Source of the DNA: a virus
DNA: 51,429 nt
Direction: 5' to 3' (one strand)
IMG/VR virus record: IMGVR_UViG_3300031772_000050
Location: 1 to 51,429 of that record
Part shown: positions 11,014-34,509 of the stretch, piece after piece
Numbering within the stretch: the first letter of the stretch is position 1
How the letters are laid out: each line of letters begins with the position of its first letter
Notes under the pieces: model-generated
The model's database searches: none
What the model was told of the DNA's origin: nothing
The model's input: only the letters and a program-made list of their open reading frames with translations
Made by a program: the position numbers and the translations under genes

Positions 11014-11343
11014 TTAGATGAGTGTTAGTTTTCCCTCATGAGCCATGCGATGACAATTCGGACATAAGGTAAGGGTATTATCTTTTGAATAAGCCCCTCC
11101 TGCCCTTACTCTGTGCACATCGCAAGTAGCTTTACCCCATCCACAAACGGCGCATTTCGTATCTCGCAGTTCTCGTTTCGCATGAGTCCTACGATACCCG
11201 CCGCTCGGAGGGTAGTTATGCCTCTTACGATAGCAAGAGTAGCAATGAGGTCTGTACTTTCCGTCTTTCCTACCAGAAAGCATGGCCTTATTACTACATC
11301 CTTCTGTCTTGCATGTTGGTCTCACTTGTTCAACTATCTTCAT
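11014..11343 (-). CDS. HNH endonuclease (free-standing homing type)
   Basis: It encodes 109 residues. Residues 11-37 carry a first zinc ribbon (C11, C16, C34, C37). Residues 64-102 form an HNH domain with C64/C67, DVH at 75-77, N89, CPNCH at 94-98 and H102. It is wedged between the major capsid and beta-helix genes, a common landing site for mobile homing endonucleases. A small hairpin overlaps its ribosome site. It is probably a selfish insertion with no structural role. Confidence 0.88.
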   Translation of the reverse strand: MKIVEQVRPTCKTEGCSNKAMLSGRKDGKYRPHCYSCYRKRHNYPPSGGYRRTHAKRELRDTKCAVCGWGKATCDVHRVRAGGAYSKDNTLTLCPNCHRMAHEGKLTLI

Positions 11344-11347
11344 CTAA

Positions 11348-11362
11348 ATTCCTTTTCGGAAT
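11348..11362 (-). promoter_or_regulatory. Hairpin covering the ribosome site of the HNH gene
   Basis: On the minus strand ATTCC-GAAAA-GGAAT forms a five-base-pair hairpin whose 3' arm is the AAGGAAT ribosome site, five to eight bases before the ATG. Read-through capsid transcripts would hide the site. Hairpin control of this kind is known for phage T4 homing endonuclease genes; here it is inferred. Confidence 0.4.
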
Positions 11363-11450
11363 GGTCATGCGGTGGTGTCGGAAATCGCATCCGACTTTAC
11401 CCACTCCATAAAACTAAGCCCTTCATTACCCCTAAGCCACAAAGAACTAC

Positions 11451-12341
11451 TTACGCGGGAACGTTTTCGAACCCGAAATGCCAATCATCCCAGCTGGTGC
11501 CGCACCTGTAGTAGCTGATATAACTCGCTACCAAGGTATTGCTATCCTTATCCTGGAACATCTGGATTGGTTCGCGGTTCCACCAAATCAAGTATTCCTT
11601 CATCATGGCATAGTCTACCATCCACCAATTTTCGGCGTCTGTCAGCCTATCCCAAACCATGAGCTTATACTTGCCCTGATGGAAGTTGACGTTATTATCC
11701 GCGGTGTCAACCTTTCCCTTCGAATTGATTATCTCAAAACCCGTTTCCTCAAGGAAGCGAGGTATGATGATTGAATCCGGGTTTACCGAGATTTGTTCTC
11801 CTATGTCGCCATAGAAGTCGTACATCGCCAGCCGGGTCGTCTCTACGTTCGTCGCACCAAGAGTAAGCGTACTCTCGTTTGACTGCGTAGCTACGCCGGT
11901 GACGTTTGACGGATGGTCTGAGGCAAACAGCTCGCAACCATCTCCATCCGAAGGTTCATAGGTCGTGCCGAGAATAAATACGTTGGCACCCTGCTTCTCC
12001 CTCGAACGATTTGCCGAAGTAGCTAAACCTGTCGGGAAACGATTTACGACACGGTTCTGGTCATCGCTCGCCAGCTTGTGCTGTATCATAATCTTCGCAG
12101 CATACTCTGTGAACGTAATGACCTTGTCGTAGCCCTGGCTTCTCTCTACTTCGCCTACTTTTCCAGTAAATTCCTGGTGGTCCGGTACCTGTCCAACGGA
12201 CGAGGATTTTTCAAAGGCCTTATCTGAGGTAAGGACATTGAATATATCCGGAACCATCGCAGGAAGCTTCTTATACTGGTCGATATAGATTACTCGAAAG
12301 TCCGTCTCGAGTAGATCCGGCCAATTAGCAGCTAAATGCAT
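11451..12341 (-). CDS. Major capsid protein (HK97 fold)
   Basis: It encodes 296 residues. The order of features matches known phage capsid proteins: an N-arm, an internal FTGKVGEVERSQGYDK segment, a FASDHP loop, the central IIIPRFLEETGFEII and the spine-like KYKLMVWDRLTDAENWWMVD, and a C-terminal SWDDWHFGF. It follows the scaffold-like gene and two small genes, the usual order portal-scaffold-capsid. It is likely the main substrate of the phage chaperonin, an inference. Confidence 0.88.
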   Translation of the reverse strand: MHLAANWPDLLETDFRVIYIDQYKKLPAMVPDIFNVLTSDKAFEKSSSVGQVPDHQEFTGKVGEVERSQGYDKVITFTEYAAKIMIQHKLASDDQNRVVNRFPTGLATSANRSREKQGANVFILGTTYEPSDGDGCELFASDHPSNVTGVATQSNESTLTLGATNVETTRLAMYDFYGDIGEQISVNPDSIIIPRFLEETGFEIINSKGKVDTADNNVNFHQGKYKLMVWDRLTDAENWWMVDYAMMKEYLIWWNREPIQMFQDKDSNTLVASYISYYRCGTSWDDWHFGFENVPA

Positions 12342-12357: not shown

Positions 12358-13170
12358 TTATGCTACTACCCGACTCCAGGTATGACACAACTGGACAATC
12401 TCTGCTTCAAAGGTGGCTAACTTTCCACCCAAACCCTCTAACCCTTTGTCATTCCAATACCTCAACGCATGCGTAGGCGCGCTTTCCCATCTTCCCCAAT
12501 TCTCTATAACCTCAAGGAAAACAGTAGTAGCAACTGCTATGATTGTATTCATACCAGTCGCCGTCGTATTAAGCGGACAGAACCTATGACCAATAGGCAA
12601 TATCTTGATAAAGTCTGTAGACGTATCAACGGTTACGGCACTATCAATCGTGGTCGTACCAGATGTAGAAACCGTAAGATAGCGTAACTTACCTTTATAG
12701 GTAGCCGCACTATCCGTTCCCTCTGTGGTATAAAGCCACGCGCCTTCTATATCATCTTCCAAGGCCGTAATTACCCAAGTCGTGGAAGCTGCTACAGCCG
12801 TTGTACAGCTCTTAGCAAGAGTCTGGTCATAATACGCAAAGTATGTTGCATCAGGGTTCACGATCGCCGGCAACCAGTTAAAACCAGTGGTTGCTACCCT
12901 ACTGTTGCAAAGAGTGGACGAAAAATTATACAACTTAGCATTTTCCTTAGATGCGTATGCATCCGCAGAATTTGCCTGAAGAATACCAATCGTATCTTCA
13001 GCTTCCGTCGCACTCGTAGAGACATAAGCATTTATATACTGCTTATACTCTTGATCGTGAAAGTTGGCATGTCGCATTACCAACTGACCCTTATACATCA
13101 CGCCCGTATCGTATACTGGGATATTGCAGACATAGGGAACATTTCCGCCTAAAAGTCTTGCAAGTTGCAT
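12358..13170 (-). CDS. Capsid-associated structural protein
   Basis: It encodes 270 residues immediately upstream of the major capsid gene. The composition is high in Thr, Ala and Ser with short strands (TTTIDSAVTVDTSTDFIKIL) and the middle resembles a beta-sandwich insert. It is probably a capsid decoration or stabilising protein. There is no recognised family, so the role rests on position. Confidence 0.82.
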   Translation of the reverse strand: MQLARLLGGNVPYVCNIPVYDTGVMYKGQLVMRHANFHDQEYKQYINAYVSTSATEAEDTIGILQANSADAYASKENAKLYNFSSTLCNSRVATTGFNWLPAIVNPDATYFAYYDQTLAKSCTTAVAASTTWVITALEDDIEGAWLYTTEGTDSAATYKGKLRYLTVSTSGTTTIDSAVTVDTSTDFIKILPIGHRFCPLNTTATGMNTIIAVATTVFLEVIENWGRWESAPTHALRYWNDKGLEGLGGKLATFEAEIVQLCHTWSRVVA

Positions 13171-14617: not shown

Positions 14618-14752
14618 CTACTCATTTGCCCAAACGTCTATTAGCTCGCCCTTAAATAGACGCTTGAGAATATCCAACTGCCCCTGATAATAGCGGGCAT
14701 CATAAAAGTTATTGGCCCGGAGGCTGCTGTCCCTGTTCCGCTCCAGGTCCAC
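14618..14752 (-). CDS. 44-aa hypothetical protein overlapping the portal end
   Basis: It encodes 44 residues from a GTG at 14752 with GGGGGAG nine bases upstream. The frame stays open further upstream but there only shadows the Pro/Gly-rich tail of the portal. The distinct part, YYQGQLDILKRLFKGELIDV, looks helical. It overlaps the portal gene by 44 bases. Start choice is uncertain. Confidence 0.55.
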   Translation of the reverse strand: MDLERNRDSSLRANNFYDARYYQGQLDILKRLFKGELIDVWANE

Positions 14753-16961
14753 CGACAGGCACTCCCCCTGTAGGTGTACTTCGAGGCCCGGCTGACCCCA
14801 TATTTTGTCCATAAGGTAAGCCCATGCCTGGTGCGTTACCAGCTCCTTCAATACCCTGCCCTTGCCCTGCGATATTGGCATATTGTTCCATACCTCTCTG
14901 TATGTTCTCCATATATGTTGCCTGAAGTTTCCGCATATAATCATTAAACACGACATTGGCTTCCGGCGTAAGCTGTCTGGTCTTACGAAGCTCTTTAAGT
15001 CGTGGTATAAGGGTAGTCGGATCGCCTAACGGTATATTCACCATCTCTTGCTCAATCATGGTAAAGATACCCTCGGCATCCTCTACGCTTGTCTCTGTCT
15101 GCGGTCGAGGCCCTATGTACTTCTCTACAGGTATTCTCCGCATAGCCTTCAGGTAGTCTGCCCTGATTTCCCACATAAAGGCGGGATTCTGCTGAACAAG
15201 TGGGTCGAAGGCCATAGTCTGGAACATCGCCATAGCAAACTGCCTCTCCGCGTCCATATCCATCGCGGTAAGGTCGAGTTGCATCTTGGCCTCATAGCTA
15301 CCAAGCATATACTCTGGAGACGGCCACTTGTGCATGTTCTCCTTGCCAAGTATCCGAGACCACATGTCCGGAGGCATATTCTCCTCATACTGTTGCCTTA
15401 CATCCGTCAGTATGGCGCAGATAATCCCCTGTACACGCGCCCCTATCAGACCAAACTTCTGTTCTCCTTGGGATATAACCGCAAGCGTACCCCTGGCTGT
15501 CGGTCGGGAAGCCGTCTCCCTACCCATCATGGCTGGAGTAAGGTAAGTAAGGCGTTCTATCAACTCCATCACAAGTTTTTCCTCTTGGAAACTCACCTGT
15601 AGACCATTGGAGGGGAATGTCGGGAACCTCACATCCCTGTCCGGGTCATCCAAAGGAATACCTGTAGCCGGCGCCGCTATAATCCTACGGGCAGGTGTTC
15701 CACTTGCCGACCTATAGAAGAAGAATGGCGCTATGAGCATGTTACCGGCATCTATTCTCTGATTGTGGATGGCATCCAGCTCATCATGGAGATGTCTGAC
15801 AAGTTCGGGTACTGACTTCCCATACGCGCGCCCGGGTCTGCGCAGGAAGGGTCTTATTACCCAAGACGACCGCCCTATCCTCGATACGGCGTGCATAGGT
15901 TTCCCTGACATGTAGAGCTTAAGGTCTTCACATATCAAAAAGACGCACTTCTCACGAATACCATCGTTGTTAATATCGTAGAGTATCTCCGCCTCAAGGC
16001 ACTTTAGCTTGTGATTCTCCTGCCTTATGTCCATCGGCGGTACAGTTCCTTCCGCCTCCATGCGTTGTTTCTGCGTACCCTTAAACTCTTCGGTCTGGCT
16101 TAACCCTGCCTTGATTATCCCTGATGTCTCACCTTGCTTACCCAAGTCAACACCCGGGCTTAAAGCACCGTGATACTGTAATTCACGAAGTTGCGGTAGG
16201 GTATACCACCGTTCGTCTATGATGTATTCGGCATGGTCTTCCCATCTCTTCTCAAAGGTATTGGCATCGTAGGGGATATAGACGTGCTCTAAGGGTCTAA
16301 TTTCAAGGTAACACCGTTCCCTACGGATATAGTCCCGTACAACCCTAAACTTCGGCTTAATGCTCAGGTTGCCATCGTCCGTAGCATAGTATTCCAGACC
16401 ATCGGGTATCTTTCTCGTTACCCACACCCAGTAGGTCTTCCATATCTTCTTAACAGCTATCGTGCCGTCTACCACCAAACAATGTACTATATCGTCAACC
16501 GTGCCGTCTATTTCCATATCAGTAGAGGTAACCCACGACATGACTACCTTATTAGCGGAAGCGGTCTCTATATCATGCTCTTCCGTACCTTCCCAATATA
16601 AGGACTTCGCATTCCAAGCCATAGGATAGAGTTTAGCATGAAGAAGGTCGCAGGCCACGGTTGTTACCATAGTGGAAATATTGGAGTGACCAGGCCACGG
16701 TATATCACTCGCTTCCTTCAAGCCTTCATACTGCTTTATGCACTTCTCCCTGATAGCCATAAAGCCACCGCGCGCCTGTTCTGACTCATCACGCATGGCA
16801 ATAATAGCCTCTACGATAGCCTTCTTCTTATCGTCACTAAGGTCAAACTGTTTAGAGAGGTTCTCTTGCTTCTCTTCCTTTTCCTTCTCTACCGCTTCCT
16901 TCGGCTTATCGAAGAACTCCCCGACCTTCTTGGTTATCTTTCCTACTATACCTTCTGGCAT
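14709..16961 (-). CDS. Portal protein, large P22/podovirus-like
   Basis: It encodes 750 residues, the size of podovirus portals. Recognisable parts are a charged N-terminal helix, the IPWPGHSNIS segment near residue 90, the wing region with VIRPFLRRPGRAYGKSVPEL, the LHDELDAIHNQRIDAGNML helix, and RETASRPTARGTL in the stem/clip area. The C-terminal tail of about 60 residues is Gly/Pro/Gln-rich and probably flexible. It follows TerL with small genes between, the normal packaging order. It forms the ring through which DNA enters and leaves. Confidence 0.9.
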   Translation of the reverse strand: MPEGIVGKITKKVGEFFDKPKEAVEKEKEEKQENLSKQFDLSDDKKKAIVEAIIAMRDESEQARGGFMAIREKCIKQYEGLKEASDIPWPGHSNISTMVTTVACDLLHAKLYPMAWNAKSLYWEGTEEHDIETASANKVVMSWVTSTDMEIDGTVDDIVHCLVVDGTIAVKKIWKTYWVWVTRKIPDGLEYYATDDGNLSIKPKFRVVRDYIRRERCYLEIRPLEHVYIPYDANTFEKRWEDHAEYIIDERWYTLPQLRELQYHGALSPGVDLGKQGETSGIIKAGLSQTEEFKGTQKQRMEAEGTVPPMDIRQENHKLKCLEAEILYDINNDGIREKCVFLICEDLKLYMSGKPMHAVSRIGRSSWVIRPFLRRPGRAYGKSVPELVRHLHDELDAIHNQRIDAGNMLIAPFFFYRSASGTPARRIIAAPATGIPLDDPDRDVRFPTFPSNGLQVSFQEEKLVMELIERLTYLTPAMMGRETASRPTARGTLAVISQGEQKFGLIGARVQGIICAILTDVRQQYEENMPPDMWSRILGKENMHKWPSPEYMLGSYEAKMQLDLTAMDMDAERQFAMAMFQTMAFDPLVQQNPAFMWEIRADYLKAMRRIPVEKYIGPRPQTETSVEDAEGIFTMIEQEMVNIPLGDPTTLIPRLKELRKTRQLTPEANVVFNDYMRKLQATYMENIQRGMEQYANIAGQGQGIEGAGNAPGMGLPYGQNMGSAGPRSTPTGGVPVGGPGAEQGQQPPGQ

Positions 16962-27078: not shown

Positions 27079-27263
27079 ATTTTCTTCCTCAAAAAGGTTC
27101 TTCTTAGTGAGATATAAAATCCCTCTAAGGACTTAAGGTCTTTTATCTCAGCACACGCCCCATACTGAATACCGTCAATACGCATTACAGCAGAGACATA
27201 ATCTATATCAGGTGGAGTCTTTATATCATCTACTACCTGATTAAGAATTACTCTTCCTTTCAC
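27075..27263 (-). CDS. Hypothetical protein, 62 aa
   Basis: It encodes 62 residues with mixed beta/alpha character (RVILNQVVDDIKTPPDIDYV, RIDGIQYGACAEI) and a basic end. It overlaps the groES stop by four bases, so it is translated with the chaperonin genes. Confidence 0.7.
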   Translation of the reverse strand: MKGRVILNQVVDDIKTPPDIDYVSAVMRIDGIQYGACAEIKDLKSLEGFYISLRRTFLRKKI

Positions 27264-27544
27264 TTCATATCTCCTTTCTCCAAGACCATAAATATGTCCC
27301 GTTCTTTAATAATATAATGCACTCCTGACTTCAACTCTACCCGATATGCTCTATCCTTACTAAAGAAAATCCTATCGCCAACTTTGACAGACGTAGGCAC
27401 AAAGGCCGGATAGGCATAGTAGTCCCCAGATCCGACAGCAATAACCTCTCCCGTCTCAGGATACTTTTTTGCCTTGTCCGCTACGAGGACTACGCTTTTT
27501 GTTTCGATTTCTTGAATCAAAACATTGTCGTATAAAAGCTTCAT
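27260..27544 (-). CDS. groES: GroES-like co-chaperonin
   Basis: It encodes 94 residues, the normal GroES length. It has the N-terminal LLYDNVLIQEI strand, ETKS mobile-loop start with a VVLV hydrophobic motif at about residues 17-21, then GEVIAVGSGDYY, VKVGDRIFFSKDRAYRVEL and a final FMVLE. It caps GroEL and would pair with the phage GroEL upstream. The strong AAAGGAGG site marks this ATG even though it lies 89 bases inside the preceding gene. Confidence 0.9.
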   Translation of the reverse strand: MKLLYDNVLIQEIETKSVVLVADKAKKYPETGEVIAVGSGDYYAYPAFVPTSVKVGDRIFFSKDRAYRVELKSGVHYIIKERDIFMVLEKGDMK

Positions 27545-28087: not shown

Positions 28088-29713
28088 CTACATAGAACGA
28101 GCAGGTTCGTAAGGCTTCTTGTCCTCTTCCGGCTTCTCTACGACCAGAACTTCCGTGGTTAAAGCTAATCCTGCAAGGCTCGTGGCATTCTGTAAGGTAT
28201 ACCGCACAACCTTGACCGGGTCTATAACCCCGAGCTTAATCATGTCGCCATACTTCAACCGCAGCACATCAAGACCGTAGTTGGAGTTCTTCTTGTTCTT
28301 GATAACCGACAGAACATCCGAGCCATCCAACCCGGCGTTTCCTACAATCGTGCGTAGGGGCACGCTAAGGACTTCCTCTATAATCTCAAAGCCGACTGCC
28401 TCCTCATGGATTAGCTTGGCCGGGGCTTGGATCTTCTGACCACACCGGAATAGGGCTACCCCACCCCCCGGCACTATACCTTCCTCTATGGCAGCGCGAG
28501 TGGCATGCAGGGCATCCTCGACCCTCATCTTCTTCTCACGCATTTCGGTCTCCGTAACCGCGCCTACCTTAAGGACTGCTACACCGGCCGTCAGCTTGGC
28601 AAGACGCTCTTGGAGCTTCTCCTTATCGTAGTCACTTTCCGAGAGGTTAATCTCGTTCTTAATCTCGCCTATCCGTGCGTCTATGTTCGCCTTGTCGCCG
28701 TTACCTTGAATAAAGACCGTGCTTTCCTTCCCGGACTCAAATGTACCGCAAGTCCCCAAATCTTCAAGACCTATCTCCTTAATATCCTGACCGAGTTCAT
28801 CTGAAACTACCTTCGTCCCGAGGTATATCGCTATATCTTCAAGCATATCCTTACGGCGATCCCCGTATCCGGGAGCCTTCACAACCGCTATGCTCTGACC
28901 ACCCTTCACGCGGTTAAGGATAAGTGTACTAAGGGCACCCCCCGTTACCTCATTGGCTATGATGACAAACGGCCGGGTCGCCTTAATGGTCTTCTCAAAT
29001 ATAGGTACTACGTCTTCCGCGTTACGCAAGTCCTTCGTAGTAACCAAGACAAGAGGCTTCTTATATATGGCCTGTAGTCGCTGGCCGTTCGTTATAAAGT
29101 AAGGGCTTACCAGACCCTCCGATAGCGTCATGCCCTCTACCACATCAAGATAGGTCTCTGAGGAAGAACTATCCTCAAGGGTAATAACCCCGTCCTCACC
29201 CACCTTGTCTATGGCTTTGGTTATAAGGTCGCCTATTAACTTCTCATTATTGGCTGCCACTGTAGCAACGTTCATTATAGATTTCCGATTGCCGGAGATC
29301 TTATCTGACATTACCGTAAGGCAGTTCACCACTTCCTCTACAGCTATATCCATACCACGTTTAAGCATGATAGGATTGATACCAGCCGATAAAGCCTTCA
29401 ACCCGGCCGTATAGATGGCCTGAGCCAGCACTACCGCGGTCGTAGTACCGTCTCCACACGTCTCTACGGTCTTACCGGCAACTTCCTTCCCCATATTAGC
29501 CCCGATATTCTCAAAGGGGTCTTCAAGTACTATCTGCCGCGCTACCGTAACACCGTCCTTCGTAACTGTAGGCGGTAGAAACTTGTTCTCAAAGACTACA
29601 TTCCGACCCTTGGGACCTAAGGTAACCTTTACCGCGTCTGCCAGCGTATCAAGTCCTCTCTTGATAGCGGCGCGTGCCTCCTCACGATACAATAAGAGCT
29701 TAAAACCTTGCAT
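28088..29713 (-). CDS. groEL: GroEL-family chaperonin (HSP60)
   Basis: It encodes 541 residues, the standard length. The ATP site is intact: TLGPKGRNV at 31-39, CGDGTTTAVVLAQAI around 87-100 with the conserved Asp, GEDGVITLEDSS, and EKKMRVEDALHATRAAIEEG with the catalytic Asp, then PGGGVAL. The GGM repeat tail of bacterial GroEL is missing; the end is EEDKKPYEPARSM. AAGGAGG precedes the ATG. A 14-aa ORF with a CQAC motif (29729-29773) and two structured RNAs lie upstream. GroES is two genes downstream, the reverse of the bacterial order. Confidence 0.95.
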   Translation of the reverse strand: MQGFKLLLYREEARAAIKRGLDTLADAVKVTLGPKGRNVVFENKFLPPTVTKDGVTVARQIVLEDPFENIGANMGKEVAGKTVETCGDGTTTAVVLAQAIYTAGLKALSAGINPIMLKRGMDIAVEEVVNCLTVMSDKISGNRKSIMNVATVAANNEKLIGDLITKAIDKVGEDGVITLEDSSSSETYLDVVEGMTLSEGLVSPYFITNGQRLQAIYKKPLVLVTTKDLRNAEDVVPIFEKTIKATRPFVIIANEVTGGALSTLILNRVKGGQSIAVVKAPGYGDRRKDMLEDIAIYLGTKVVSDELGQDIKEIGLEDLGTCGTFESGKESTVFIQGNGDKANIDARIGEIKNEINLSESDYDKEKLQERLAKLTAGVAVLKVGAVTETEMREKKMRVEDALHATRAAIEEGIVPGGGVALFRCGQKIQAPAKLIHEEAVGFEIIEEVLSVPLRTIVGNAGLDGSDVLSVIKNKKNSNYGLDVLRLKYGDMIKLGVIDPVKVVRYTLQNATSLAGLALTTEVLVVEKPEEDKKPYEPARSM

Positions 29714-29817
29714 AATACTCCTCCTTGTTTAACTACGGTTAGCCTTACAAGCCTGACACTTCTTTAGTCTCATGTATCACCTTTAATTACTTATTAGTTC
29801 TTTATCGGTAATTAGAA

Positions 29818-29908
29818 TGAGCAGGAAGGGTGTCGAACCCCCTTTATCCACAATCGCAGTATCATAAATGTTATCACGTGATTCACTTATGACCTTCGCT
29901 ACCTGCCC
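29818..29908 (-). ncRNA. tRNA-like element with acceptor and T arm
   Basis: GGGCAGG (29902-29908) pairs with CCTGCTC (29819-29825) to form a seven-pair acceptor. It is joined directly to a T arm GGGGG-TTCGACA-CCCTT (29826-29842) with a normal TTCGA loop. Between them I find no proper D or anticodon arm. Instead, one long arm (CATAAGTG with CATTTATG) and a single-stranded stretch fill the 57 bases. It would probably be cut by RNase P and could separate the upstream RNA from groEL mRNA. It is not an ordinary tRNA. Confidence 0.5.
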
Positions 29909-29923
29909 ATGTTATCAATTAGA

Positions 29924-30123
29924 GTGAGCAACCCGACAGTTGGTAACTGCTGATGGCGTTATCTTTTTATCGCCAGACTATACCACAGGGTATAGCGGGC
30001 ATATAACACTCGGGGCAGGCTGTTCTTGTTGCCCACTGAAGGGCGAGCCTGCATTTGACCACTTGCCATGTGGCACCTTTCCCTTTGTTCATCTTGGACA
30101 CCGCTGTCCACGGGATTGCTCAC
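29924..30123 (-). ncRNA. Candidate 200-nt structured RNA upstream of groEL
   Basis: The ends close by 12 base pairs with one bulge (GTGAGCAACCCG at 29924-29935 with 30111-30123). Six local hairpins follow inside: 29937-29949, 29954-29975, 29978-29995 (seven pairs, four-base loop), 30016-30051 (six outer pairs plus GCCC/GGGC), 30064-30075 and 30095-30110 (six pairs, four-base loop). So many perfect stems in 200 bases look like a folded RNA, not a gene. The sequence TGCTCA(C/T)TCTAATT at its end recurs after the tRNA-like element. I cannot match it to tmRNA or RNase P RNA. Confidence 0.55.
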
Positions 30124-30272: not shown

Positions 30273-30337
30273 ATTGGTCTCCATAGTTATAGTAGCCCAC
30301 CCAGACCTTTCAGCTCTTGGCGGCAGGTCTATGTTGG

Positions 30338-30490
30338 CTACCAAATTTCTATCTTTGTTCTTTGACTATCCCTTGAAGCCATTTTACTACATTTTTTATG
30401 CTTACAATATGCCTCTTGGTATTCACATTTAGGACAGCCCTCCTCCCATTCCCAAGTATGTCGTATATGTTTTTTATTTTTTCTCTTCAT
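30338..30490 (-). CDS. 50-aa Cys/His-rich protein
   Basis: It encodes 50 residues starting with a basic MKRKNKKHIRHTW, then GCPKCEYQEAYCKHKKC, a dense Cys/His cluster suggesting a zinc site. It overlaps the gene before it by 17 bases. It has a weak ribosome site. Confidence 0.55.
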   Translation of the reverse strand: MKRKNKKHIRHTWEWEEGCPKCEYQEAYCKHKKCSKMASRDSQRTKIEIW

Positions 30491-30659
30491 AGTGTTCACA
30501 TTCCTTATAACTCTTGTCCCAGTAATACATACAAACATATTTTTGGAGTGGAATTTTATGATAATCAACACAACATTCTGGATGCTCGATTATTTCCCAA
30601 ATCATTTGAGGCTTGATATGTAAATATTTACAGTGAATTATTTTATCTTCGTGTGCCAA
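30474..30659 (-). CDS. 61-aa Cys-containing hypothetical protein
   Basis: It encodes 61 residues from TTG at 30659, with GGATGG upstream. It contains HCKYLH, ECCVDYH and KECEHY, another likely metal site, and aromatic stretches (YVCMYYWD). The function is unknown. Confidence 0.55.
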   Translation of the reverse strand: MAHEDKIIHCKYLHIKPQMIWEIIEHPECCVDYHKIPLQKYVCMYYWDKSYKECEHYEEKK

Positions 30660-30682
30660 GATTCCATCCTTTCGGTAGTGGG

Positions 30683-30853
30683 CTAATCAGATACATCAAA
30701 CTCAGTACCTTTCCGATTTGCCTTGCGAAAGGATTTTTTACAAATACTACTACAATATATTCCTTTTAAGATAGTCTTTTCGCACCATAGGCACGTCTTT
30801 TTATAAGGATAATGTCTTGAAATTTCTTCTTGTCTTTCTTCTAATGTTTTCAT
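30683..30853 (-). CDS. 56-aa zinc-finger protein
   Basis: It encodes 56 residues with CLWC and YCSSICKKSF, an FCS-like finger, followed by a basic region. GGGAGG lies seven bases before the ATG. It belongs to the small-gene cassette array whose spacers share TTTCAACTGGTGCT. Confidence 0.65.
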   Translation of the reverse strand: MKTLEERQEEISRHYPYKKTCLWCEKTILKGIYCSSICKKSFRKANRKGTEFDVSD

Positions 30854-30876
30854 CACACCCTCCCTTTCAACTGGTG

Positions 30877-31074
30877 CTACATAATATCTGTGGTCCCCGA
30901 GCCGATATATGTAGTTGAATCTGTTTTATTTTCTATCATTTTTTGTAGGTAACCTATAAGATGTTTATGTTCTTTAAGAGTAAGCCATTCACATCTTTTT
31001 AAGCCATTTATAGCAGTTGCGGCACACTCCCATAAACATTGATTTGTCCTATCCCATGTTCGGCTTCGCTTCAT
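30877..31074 (-). CDS. Hypothetical protein, 65 aa
   Basis: It encodes 65 residues, helical, starting MKRSRTWDRTNQCLWECAA with a KEHKHLIGYLQKMIENK helix. It is one of the cassette genes with the shared spacer on both sides. No family was recognised. Confidence 0.7.
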   Translation of the reverse strand: MKRSRTWDRTNQCLWECAATAINGLKRCEWLTLKEHKHLIGYLQKMIENKTDSTTYIGSGTTDIM

Positions 31075-31106
31075 TTCTCTATCTCCTCTTTCAACTGGTG
31101 CTCCCC

Positions 31107-31310
31107 TTACTTATCTTCCTGTTCTTCACAATGAAACATAAGTATATATTCATTGGTCTTCTCATTATACTCGTAACACTCATCTACTACTGCTTGTAGG
31201 GGGACACTTTCAAGGTCTTTCATAAAATCCACAAGAGAAGTACCCATCCTAAAAGTTATCTTGTGCTTTGTCCGGATTATTTTTATTTCAAGTTCTTTGG
31301 TATAACTCAT
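31107..31310 (-). CDS. Hypothetical protein, 67 aa
   Basis: It encodes 67 residues with beta strands followed by an acidic end (EYNEKTNEYILMFHCEEQED). It has a strong AAAGGAGG-type site. It is a cassette gene. The function is unknown. Confidence 0.7.
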   Translation of the reverse strand: MSYTKELEIKIIRTKHKITFRMGTSLVDFMKDLESVPLQAVVDECYEYNEKTNEYILMFHCEEQEDK

Positions 31311-31377
31311 TTTCTCTCCCTACCTCCTTTTTTACCTATCAACTGGTGCTCCCCAAGACACAGAGGGAGCATAATGG

Positions 31378-31611
31378 TTACTCTACTGGCTCATAGGTTG
31401 CTTCAAATATATCAGGCTTACAGGGATACTTCTCACTTTTCACGCCCGTTATAATCCAGTCCCCTTTATCTACTCTCATTACTCCTTCAAGAGTGTCAAT
31501 ATAACACCATGAAGGCTTAGTTGAACCGTATTTGTAACAACCGTCAGGCAATGTGCGACCATTCCATTGAACTGCTTCAATTACTATTGGTTTCTTCCTG
31601 TATTTTTTCAC
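31378..31611 (-). CDS. Phage protein of the KKPVVIEA...GDWIITG type
   Basis: It encodes 77 residues. RKKPIVIEAVQWNG, IDTLEGVMRVDKGDWIITGV and YPCKPDIFEATYE match a small protein found in many phages, often called PGDYG-type. The fold is a compact beta domain. The biological role is not known. Confidence 0.82.
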   Translation of the reverse strand: MKKYRKKPIVIEAVQWNGRTLPDGCYKYGSTKPSWCYIDTLEGVMRVDKGDWIITGVKSEKYPCKPDIFEATYEPVE

Positions 31612-31636
31612 CCCTACCTCCTCTTTTACCTGCGGG

Positions 31637-31885
31637 TTAGTTGCCTAATTCTTCCAGCACTTTATCAATAGCGGCGTTCCAATCCTTTATCTCACAGTTT
31701 TTGCGAGACCTAAAATAAATAGAGCATAAAGGTTTCCGTAGCCCCTCAACCAATTCTCTGATGGAGGCGAGGCAAACCTCCATGTTCTCTATACCAGTAA
31801 ATTCGTTATCGTGCTGGCAATAATCACCACCACAGCAACCTAAATGATGTTTATTCAGTATCTTCCTCAACCTACCCTCTGCCAT
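31637..31885 (-). CDS. Hypothetical protein, 82 aa
   Basis: It starts at ATG 31885, five bases after AGGAGG and inside the end of the gene before. It has HHLGCCGGDYCQHDNEF, a Cys/His cluster, followed by two helices (MEVCLASIRELVEGL and NAAIDKVLEEL). It is probably a metal-binding small protein. Confidence 0.7.
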   Translation of the reverse strand: MAEGRLRKILNKHHLGCCGGDYCQHDNEFTGIENMEVCLASIRELVEGLRKPLCSIYFRSRKNCEIKDWNAAIDKVLEELGN

Positions 31886-32093
31886 CTCCGCCTCCTGGTT
31901 CCCCATACACAATATCAAGGTGGTTCTTCAGCTTGGTATTCTCTGCCCGTAGCCTCTCCACCTCATCCAGGGCTTCCAGGGCGGTTTGGAGGATATTATT
32001 ACTATTCTTATCCCGACAATAGAAGATATTGCCTCTACTAAGAAAATCTTTCAATCCTTCCCTCGCCTCTCTTATATCTTCAGGGCTAATCAT
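31872..32093 (-). CDS. Hypothetical coiled-coil protein
   Basis: It encodes 73 residues starting MISPEDIREAREGLKDFL and continuing with an ALEALDEVERLRAENTKLKN coiled coil. It overlaps the flavoprotein gene stop by four bases. Similar short coiled coils are common phage accessory proteins. Confidence 0.7.
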   Translation of the reverse strand: MISPEDIREAREGLKDFLSRGNIFYCRDKNSNNILQTALEALDEVERLRAENTKLKNHLDIVYGEPGGGDGRG

Positions 32094-32632
32094 GGCTCAA
32101 ATCTCCTCAATCTTTGCGCTAACTCTTTTATATTTTTCTTCTGCCAGCCATTAGGATTATCTGGCTGGTCTTGACTACCAAAAAACATCAAGGCATATGA
32201 AGGAATTATCATACCCATTGTATTCAAAGTTAGAGCAAGATTTTCCAAGATATTCGTTGCGCCACCTCCAGGAGAAACGGCTATAATTCCTAACTTTTTA
32301 CCTTCCAAAAGAACACTATTGTTATCCCAATCAATATGCTCCGTAAGCATATCTATAAAGTTCTTGAGTTGGCCTGGTATGTTAAACCAATAAGTTGGAG
32401 TAGCGATAACAATACTATCGGCCTCTTCCATGTCTTTGATAAAAGGATACCAAAGCGGCTTTCTCATTAAATTGCCGTCATGCGGAAAAAAAGCATAATC
32501 ATAAAGATTTACCCTTATGATTGTTACCTGTTTACCTGCCTCCTTCTCAAAGATAGTCAATAATTTATCTACCGTACCCTTTTTGAGAGGAGAAGCATTT
32601 ATTGTAACTATTGATTTCCTTTTCTTCTTCAC
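32090..32632 (-). CDS. Flavodoxin-fold NAD(P)H-dependent FMN reductase
   Basis: It encodes 180 residues. The FMN phosphate site is NASPLKKGTVDKLL at 12-25, followed by IVIATPTYWFNIPGQLKNFI at about 74-93 and a second ring-binding loop AVSPGGGATN at 118-127. These are the marks of the NADPH-dependent FMN reductase/quinone reductase family. It would transfer electrons from NAD(P)H to quinones or other acceptors in the cytoplasm. This is a metabolic gene unusual in a phage of this size; its neighbours are small unknowns. Confidence 0.85.
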   Translation of the reverse strand: MKKKRKSIVTINASPLKKGTVDKLLTIFEKEAGKQVTIIRVNLYDYAFFPHDGNLMRKPLWYPFIKDMEEADSIVIATPTYWFNIPGQLKNFIDMLTEHIDWDNNSVLLEGKKLGIIAVSPGGGATNILENLALTLNTMGMIIPSYALMFFGSQDQPDNPNGWQKKNIKELAQRLRRFEP

Positions 32633-32895
32633 GGCTTCACCTCATCAAACAGCTTATCCAGGGCTTGCTTGACTTCCTCAAGGCAAACATTATGACCATA
32701 AGTTTCGCCTTGAATATACTCATTATCTTGCCTATCCCCTGCTATTTCGAGAGGCATCGCCTTCTTCACCTCCTGCTTGATGGCAAGGAGGGCTTTATCT
32801 AATACTTCTGTCTTATCTTTCATGCCGATTACAGGGCTAAACGTTGCGTAATGCCATTTATTGCCAAAGTCTGCTATTATTTCTCTAATACTCAT
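32629..32895 (-). CDS. Paralogous small protein, copy 1
   Basis: It encodes 88 residues sharing MSIR(E/K)I at the start, LLAIKQEVKK in the middle and QALDKLFDEV(K/R)P at the end with the gene at 33218-33481. The DNA of the 3' end is almost identical for over 30 bases, so the duplication or exchange is recent. It overlaps the flavoprotein start. Confidence 0.75.
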   Translation of the reverse strand: MSIREIIADFGNKWHYATFSPVIGMKDKTEVLDKALLAIKQEVKKAMPLEIAGDRQDNEYIQGETYGHNVCLEEVKQALDKLFDEVKP

Positions 32896-32906
32896 ACTGC
32901 CCTCCC

Positions 32907-32999
32907 TTACTCGTTCGAAATATAACCAAGTAAAAACCCGAGACCAAACATTATTAGTCCAAAAATTAATCCATTAAACCACACTTGGTAAGCACTCAT
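32907..32999 (-). CDS. 30-aa hydrophobic membrane peptide
   Basis: MSAYQVWFNGLIFGLIMFGL and the following GFLLGY form one membrane span. AAGGAGG lies nine bases upstream. It belongs to a set of very short membrane peptides in this region. Confidence 0.55.
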   Translation of the reverse strand: MSAYQVWFNGLIFGLIMFGLGFLLGYISNE

Positions 33000-33032
33000 A
33001 CTACGACGCCTCCTTATATCTACTAATCTTTT

Positions 33033-33155
33033 CTACCGCTTGCTCTCATAGCCACCTGTGAATAAAAGTAGCCATAATAATGCCCACACCTTACAATGAC
33101 AAGCACATACGATAATTACTACATCAACAATAACTACCCCCCAGTTTATCTTCAC
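33033..33155 (-). CDS. 40-aa membrane peptide
   Basis: It encodes 40 residues from GTG at 33155 with GGGGG upstream. Two hydrophobic stretches (VVIVDVVIIVCAC and VWALLWLLLFTGG) are separated by HCK. It overlaps or abuts the 21-aa ORF before it. Its role is unknown. Confidence 0.45.
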   Translation of the reverse strand: MKINWGVVIVDVVIIVCACHCKVWALLWLLLFTGGYESKR

Positions 33156-33221
33156 TCACTCCCCCTCATCCCATAACCAAATAGCGGTTGCTCCCCATAT
33201 ATCGGTTCTGTCTTTTGTCAT
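33156..33221 (-). CDS. 21-aa miniprotein
   Basis: A tiny ORF coupled by ATGA to the preceding paralogue gene, Trp-rich (MTKDRTDIWGATAIWLWDEG). It is weakly supported; it may only serve to carry ribosomes to the next start. Confidence 0.3.
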   Translation of the reverse strand: MTKDRTDIWGATAIWLWDEGE

Positions 33222-33481
33222 GGCCTCACCTCATCAAACAGCTTATCCAGGGCTTGCCTTATCTCGGTCTTGGCTTGGTTATAGGCATCATCTAAATCAT
33301 GTCGGTTAAAGTTTTCATAGTTTTCTCCCTCTGTGCTTCTATCTTCCCCTACCACCTTCTTCACCTCCTGCTTGATAGCGAGGAGGACAACATCTATTCT
33401 TCCACCTTTTCTACAAGCTAAACAAGCACAAGGTTGGAAATGGTTTTCAATCATTTTTAAGAGTATTTTTCTAATACTCAT
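33218..33481 (-). CDS. Paralogous small protein, copy 2
   Basis: It encodes 87 residues, paralogous to 32629-32895 at both ends and in the centre. The variable middle here has a Cys cluster (CACLACRKG) absent from copy 1. Shared ends with different middles fit domain shuffling. Confidence 0.75.
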   Translation of the reverse strand: MSIRKILLKMIENHFQPCACLACRKGGRIDVVLLAIKQEVKKVVGEDRSTEGENYENFNRHDLDDAYNQAKTEIRQALDKLFDEVRP

Positions 33482-33532
33482 ACTGCCTCCTTACTCTGCC
33501 AACAATATGGTTCATATTCCCCTCTCCTTCTT

Positions 33533-33730
33533 TTACTCTTCTATAAATATTCGTTCTAACTCATCTAAACATTCTTTTATTGACCACATAGCGCGTGCAT
33601 CTGGGAGATGAAATCTTAACCATTCTAAATATTTTTGATGTATTTCATCCGCTAAAGTTTTATCACTTCTATATATATTACCATGACGTTTTTTTATCTG
33701 GTCAATAACCGAATCTCTTATTTTATCCAT
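33533..33730 (-). CDS. Hypothetical protein, 65 aa
   Basis: It encodes 65 residues, largely helical (IRDSVIDQIKKRHGNIYRSD, IKECLDELERIFIEE). It starts MDKIRDS. No family was recognised. It is a cassette-region gene. Confidence 0.7.
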   Translation of the reverse strand: MDKIRDSVIDQIKKRHGNIYRSDKTLADEIHQKYLEWLRFHLPDARAMWSIKECLDELERIFIEE

Positions 33731-33758
33731 TTCTCCCTACTCTTTCTCCTCATCCCAG

Positions 33759-34424
33759 TTACGATAGGTGGTCATTCAACCGCTTGATTACCTCGTTAAT
33801 CTTATCCTTACACATCAGCGTTGCTTCATCAGTAGGAGGATAAGTAAAGTAGAGAGGCTCAACCTTCCCCACCTTCTCCTGCGGCTTCTCATTTCCATGT
33901 ATAGGACATTCTTCGTACTCATCTATTCTATCGCAACCACATTGGTATTCCTGCGGCTTCTCTGGCACATGCATTATAAGGCCGTCGTGCTTGGCTGGCT
34001 CATCCAGACGTGGGTCATGTTCCACACAAAACTTATTCCTTGTAGTAGGTGTATTACATCCTACTTGTTGACAGACATTGTAGTATTTCTCCTCACCCTT
34101 GCCATAGACAGTATCAAAGATAGTTTTAGCCGCTTCGGTATAGGGGCGGTTATAGATTATTTCTTCCATTTTCTGTAGTTCCATCTGCCTCGGGATACCC
34201 CCAGCTTGAAGGATGTCATCAGCAAACTTCAACAAATCCTCCCTTAGCCAGGGTATTTCCTCGCCTAATGCGTCTGCTAACTTGTCCCTACTCAACTCCT
34301 TCCCCTGTGCCTCGCTATCCCCCCAGATTTCACGGGCGAGGCGAATGGCATCGAAATCATACAACTCACCCTGTATTCCATACAACTCCTTTACCCTCTT
34401 CTCAAACTGCTCAATTTTACTCAT
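33759..34424 (-). CDS. Hypothetical Zn-site protein, 221 aa
   Basis: It starts MSKIEQFEKRVKELY and has an AIRLAREIWG motif, both shared with the protein at 34844-35407, so their N-termini are paralogous. The C-terminal half has several Cys/His pairs (CQQVGCNTPTTRNKFCVEH and CGCDRIDEYEECPIH). The function was not recognised. Confidence 0.78.
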   Translation of the reverse strand: MSKIEQFEKRVKELYGIQGELYDFDAIRLAREIWGDSEAQGKELSRDKLADALGEEIPWLREDLLKFADDILQAGGIPRQMELQKMEEIIYNRPYTEAAKTIFDTVYGKGEEKYYNVCQQVGCNTPTTRNKFCVEHDPRLDEPAKHDGLIMHVPEKPQEYQCGCDRIDEYEECPIHGNEKPQEKVGKVEPLYFTYPPTDEATLMCKDKINEVIKRLNDHLS

Positions 34425-34509
34425 TTCTCCTCCCCATTACCACCCACACATTCATCACCATGCACAACACCACTCCCACTAACCCTATCCACTCTCTCAT
34501 CGTTATCAT
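34417..34509 (-). CDS. 30-aa membrane peptide
   Basis: It begins with MITMREWIGLVGVVLCMVMN and ends GRRNE, giving one membrane span. The start overlaps the stop of the preceding gene and the end overlaps the next start by eight bases. Confidence 0.5.
   Translation of the reverse strand: MITMREWIGLVGVVLCMVMNVWVVMGRRNE

Follow-up and report, generated by a model that had tools for sequence, protein, structure and literature searches.

What is the strongly structured sequence that stands directly ahead of the chaperonin genes of this uncultivated phage, and does it act as an RNA? The window analysed here is the whole 51,429 nt of IMG/VR record IMGVR_UViG_3300031772_000050, in which the initial annotation had placed a structured RNA of 200 nt ahead of a groEL operon. 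The fold, the lack of an Rfam match, a sharp conserved border and the groES gene all bear this placement out, but the conserved unit is larger than was proposed and extends to position 29818. We tentatively favour the explanation that the groEL-groES leader contains, at 29818–30123 of the minus strand, a noncoding RNA module of two parts, which tRNA-maturation enzymes would cut at a tRNA-like element. Since groEL lies on the minus strand, the minus strand is taken as the sense strand of the element. The features discussed below are as follows.

27260–27544, minus strand: groES (Cpn10; PF00166, E 5.7e-17)
28088–29713, minus strand: groEL (phrog_5725, E 3.5e-155)
29729–29773, minus strand: 14-codon ORF MRLKKCQACKANRS between the tRNA-like structure and groEL, from the sequence; its homologue in the related contig L033 is MRLKKCPSCKVNRS
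29818–29908, minus strand: tRNA-like structure of 91 nt (Rfam tRNA, 20 bits; only acceptor plus T-arm motif in the window; model R1)
29826–29842, minus strand: T arm GGGGG-TTCGACA-CCCTT (Rfam alignment and motif search)
29861–29893, minus strand: long anticodon-like arm with the palindrome ATCACGTGAT in its loop (folds and stem search)
29893–29894, minus strand: GG of the D region, a candidate elbow contact with the T loop (from the sequence; elbow role by analogy to mascRNA, PMC11693755)
29924–30123, minus strand: RNA1, a 200-nt multi-branched RNA domain
29924–29934, minus strand: 3' arm of the closing stem, GGGTTGCTCAC (arm complementarity and three-contig alignment)
29936–29950, minus strand: 3' hairpin GCAGT/ACTGT, stacked on the closing stem; a G-U pair is G-C in the relatives
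29956–30009, minus strand: helix GTGTTAT/ATAACGC, 30003–30009 with 29956–29962, common to independent MFE folds of the window and L033
30012–30078, minus strand: variable middle hairpin region, shorter and rewritten in the relatives (alignment)
30079–30089, minus strand: invariant stretch AACAAAGGGAA, mainly unpaired in the folds (alignment)
30095–30110, minus strand: hairpin TGGACA/TGTCCA, stem invariant and loop variable
30112–30123, minus strand: 5' arm of the closing stem, GTGAGCAATCCC, identical across three contigs

The 200-nt domain

The 12-pair closing stem and six perfect local hairpins that the initial annotation described at 29924–30123 are present. On the minus (groEL-sense) strand this stretch has an MFE of -75.5 kcal/mol and a z of -3.56, two of 200 shuffles being equally good, and among 514 windows of 200 nt examined along the minus strand it has the lowest MFE and ranks sixth by z. 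The plus strand likewise folds well (z -4.0), as is expected of hairpin DNA. The arms of the closing stem, 29924–29934 and 30113–30123, are 11 nt each and 91% complementary, and in the MFE fold the stem has 12 pairs with a single bulged U. The larger perfect local stems are of 7 bp (29978–29995), 6 bp (30095–30110) and 5 bp (29954–29975 and 29937–29949), and two more of 4 bp are at 30031–30044 and 30064–30075 (or 30059–30073). The hairpin at 29954–29975 is mutually exclusive with the longer helix 30003–30009/29956–29962, which the MFE favours and which closes the hairpin arm 29971–30001; one pair of this helix is broken in the related contig L034, and the MFE fold of L034 diverges there.

The upstream border of the domain is sharp. 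The genes that precede it in the window and in L033 are unrelated, yet both have their stop codon 2 nt before the closing stem, so the unit appears to start at the stem itself. A gap of 2 nt between gene and stem is too short to hold a promoter, and around the module the minus strand showed neither a sigma-70-like promoter nor a terminator. The 2-nt gap and the lack of a sigma-70-like site together favour processing from a longer transcript.

The tRNA-like structure

Fifteen nt downstream of the closing stem of RNA1 begins a tRNA-like structure that the initial annotation overlooked and that gives the most informative hint at a possible mechanism for the element. Its score against the Rfam tRNA family (RF00005) is 20.0 bits, below the gathering cut-off of 29. 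It has an acceptor stem of 7 pairs (8–9 if the flanking AU/AU is counted), an anticodon-like arm of 9–10 bp with a loop larger than 7 nt, and a small hairpin also within 29818–29908; it has no D stem, no 7-nt anticodon loop and no encoded CCA. The combination of a 7-pair acceptor stem, a 5-pair T stem and a TTCRA loop occurs once on the two strands of the window. In shuffles it arises by chance 0.03 times per strand, and in none of 60 when U8-A9 and length are added, figures that serve only as a guide, the criteria having been chosen after the element was seen. The sequence TGCTCAYTCTAATT is present 3' of each part (29917–29930 and 29810–29823), which suggests that RNA1 and the tRNA-like part may have a shared end or carry an old duplication of the stem.

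ARAGORN in its default mode makes no call on this structure. When introns of up to 3000 nt are allowed it predicts a tRNA-Ile with a 174-nt intron at 29818–30083, its only intron-containing call in the window. We reject this tRNA because the sequence holding its 5' half is missing or rewritten in L033, and because ARAGORN reports 317 genes at a 50% threshold. A permuted tmRNA was likewise rejected (see below).

Conservation in related phages

Three related contigs, all of one phage type, were found in IMG/VR; L032 and L033 carry both parts, and L034 carries the 200-nt part at its contig end. Both parts are kept together with groEL. The covariance model of RNA1, R2, matches only here and in L033 and L034. 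The tRNA-like part is 100% identical in L033, within an identical run of 101 nt, while groEL differs between the window and the relatives at 114 of 1626 bases (7%), with 19% of its fourfold sites changed. This identity is only suggestive, as groEL too has an unbroken identical stretch, of 137 nt, and 3.4% of the 100-nt windows along the gene are without any difference. Since the relatives represent one phage type, conservation among them may partly reflect recent descent.

RNA1 in the relatives is 164 nt long, 36 nt shorter than in the window, with both ends kept and the middle rewritten. The hairpins at 30031–30044 and 30059–30075 are missing and that at 29978–29995 is replaced by another; despite this different middle the L033 domain folds with a z of -3.70. 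Independent MFE folds of the window and L033 have 34 pairs in common, in the same alignment columns. The 68 columns of these pairs contain one substitution (G-U to G-C), and the other 134 columns contain 29 substitutions and 40 gaps, a count biased to agreement in that the shared-pair columns were picked for being shared. RNAalifold finds compensatory changes in none of 54 pairs, which, with two lineages and nearly all pairs invariant, settles nothing about the compensatory changes that the initial annotation had proposed to look for; so small and closely related a set of relatives cannot support a covariation test. Neither RNA1 nor the tRNA-like part is present in L004, the phage with the next closest groEL (75%).

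No Rfam family matches at the gathering threshold, including riboswitch and thermosensor leaders, GOLLD, ROOL and tmRNA, and at relaxed E-values there are only sub-threshold matches, none of them real. A blastn search of named phages and plasmids gave no homologue. Five pattern scans of viral contigs returned only already-known contigs and chance matches, and one of genome contigs gave four matches, all chance; such searches require exact matches and distant relatives would escape them. A model search of 299 genomes from the phylum of one chance-match genome, which may not be the phylum of the host, found none, and contigs related by their portal protein lack the groEL region. The module is unmatched to any described RNA family and is probably a new phage leader or small RNA; its distribution is narrow so far.

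Comparison with described RNAs

The closest likeness is to the human mascRNA and menRNA, which have tRNA-type acceptor and T stems, a reduced D region and a longer anticodon-equivalent stem, with two Gs building the elbow that RNase P and RNase Z recognise (PMC11693755). An acceptor/T-arm stack, a reduced D region with two Gs and a long anticodon-equivalent stem are all found in the phage element, and the order of parts, with the tRNA-like structure lying downstream of another RNA, is that of MALAT1-mascRNA and MENβ-menRNA (PMC11693755). Unlike the human loci, this one is in a phage and has a protein operon downstream; cleavage is proposed by analogy, and no sequence relationship is claimed. 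A search of the limited open-access literature found no phage example of a MALAT1-type arrangement.

Other RNAs resemble the module in part. The tRNA-like domain of tmRNA has a deformed D arm, a long arm where tRNA has its anticodon arm, and a G-U at the third acceptor pair (PMC3985003). The phage element shares the first two of these, but its G-U is at acceptor pair 2, it lacks CCA and an Rfam tmRNA match, and ARAGORN calls a tmRNA, including the permuted form, only at a 40% threshold and with implausible tags. The bacterial Y RNA YrlA is modular, with a stem formed from its ends and a tRNA-like domain (PMC8394870), and the phage module likewise has a stem formed by ends and a tRNA-like domain; here, however, the tRNA-like part stands apart on the 3' side, and YrlA is not listed among Rfam matches up to E 10. 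As to the YrlA partner Rsr/Ro60, Pfam scans of most of the large ORFs found no Rsr-like family (a 425-aa ORF was compared with PHROGs only, and the genome may be incomplete). GOLLD and ROOL are large folded phage noncoding RNAs, often near tRNA genes, and members of GOLLD are often longer than 800 nt (PMC12286853), whereas the phage domain is 200 nt long and has no Rfam match to either. Thus tmRNA, YrlA, GOLLD and ROOL each fail at least one tested feature.

A processing model and its alternatives

In the explanation that we tentatively favour, the module would be transcribed within a long leftward transcript, and its tRNA-like part would stack its acceptor stem on its T arm and form a D-T elbow. 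RNase P might then cut the 5' end of this part and RNase Z, or an equivalent, its 3' end. These cuts would liberate RNA1, a compact molecule whose ends are paired, and would create a 5' end for the groEL mRNA. The analysis shows the fold propensity, the tRNA-like sequence features, the conservation of both parts alongside groEL and the loss of the reading frame; from these we infer that the module is transcribed and cleaved and may have a regulatory effect. If this is correct, a phage tRNA look-alike serves as punctuation that frees a structured RNA and sets the 5' end of a chaperonin mRNA. Against this explanation stand the lack of compensatory pairs, the sub-cut-off tRNA score, the absence of CCA and the absence of both parts from L004. 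It seems unlikely, beyond this, that the module represents a new class of two-domain phage RNA acting in trans during infection. In such a class the folded 200-nt domain and a tRNA mimic, which might dimerise by way of the palindrome in its loop, would for example occupy the tRNA enzymes of the host or defences that cut tRNA, and expression of groEL would be tied to the release of the RNA.

The main rival is a plain cis-acting groEL 5' leader that stabilises the mRNA or tunes its translation, with no released RNA and no cleavage by tRNA enzymes. We regard this as possible but doubtful: each lineage keeps the module beside groEL even though the gene ahead of it has been exchanged, and no terminator lies between module and groEL, but about 104 nt, including the 14-codon ORF, separate the end of the module from groEL, an unsystematic inspection noticed no pairing with the groEL ribosome-binding site, and in L004 a similar groEL occurs without the module. 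A hairpin-rich spacer next to the relic of a decayed tRNA or tRNA-like element, kept by recent descent and without present function, would account for the missing CCA and D stem and the orphan distribution, and 7% divergence in groEL does leave some stretches unaltered. It is nonetheless rather unlikely, as decay should not spare all of the acceptor and T-arm pairs, and the tRNA-like part lies in its 101-nt identical run while 19% of groEL fourfold sites have changed.

The remaining two readings dispense with a noncoding RNA. A small protein gene could start at the GTG of the closing stem, with 54 codons in the window and 39 in the relatives; this GTG is 2 nt past a stop codon, as in coupled translation, the first 15 codons are nearly alike (MSNPxDxGVQDEQRE), and two of the three differences between L033 and L034 are synonymous. 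But the carboxyl halves are unlike, as a 28-nt indel shifts the frame, the 39 codons of L033 stop short of the best-conserved 3' third and lack a ribosome-binding site, and there is no Pfam match. The 54-codon frame (29959–30123), whose conservation as protein would have spoken against the initial annotation, is therefore lost past its first part, and a protein, though possible, is the less likely reading and in our judgement quite improbable. A DNA-level element, a recombination, replication or packaging site built of hairpins, would fit the strong folds on both strands and a position bordering the mosaic region of gene exchange. We consider it very improbable, as the element is single copy, the GC skew is unchanged there, and the T arm, T loop and D-region GG are features of RNA.

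Other features of the window

The 14-codon ORF at 29729–29773 has a CxxC motif and a ribosome-binding site, and it is kept in L033 immediately ahead of groEL. Upstream of groEL, 30292–34433 is a mosaic in which the small genes differ between the window and L033/L034. The mosaic genes are separated by conserved stretches of 28–60 nt, often with a ribosome-binding site, as if these were recombination linkers. The sequence AGCACCAGTTGA stands before start codons three times there on the minus strand (30867–30878, 31091–31102 and 31339–31350), against 0.14 expected by chance. Another long conserved block of noncoding appearance, 33027–33173 (minus strand), was rejected as a candidate RNA, as it encodes a 40-residue membrane peptide; it is 99% identical to L033 amid a diverged region, and recent gene exchange is likely.

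Two coding stretches of the minus strand near the major head protein gene, 12901–13100 and 11101–11900, have z values down to -6.0 against shuffles, and no long inverted repeats were found. We note that the portal protein (14709–16961, minus strand) is distantly similar (24–28%) to those of unclassified Manatee Spring viruses and of a virus assigned to Methanomicrobiales.
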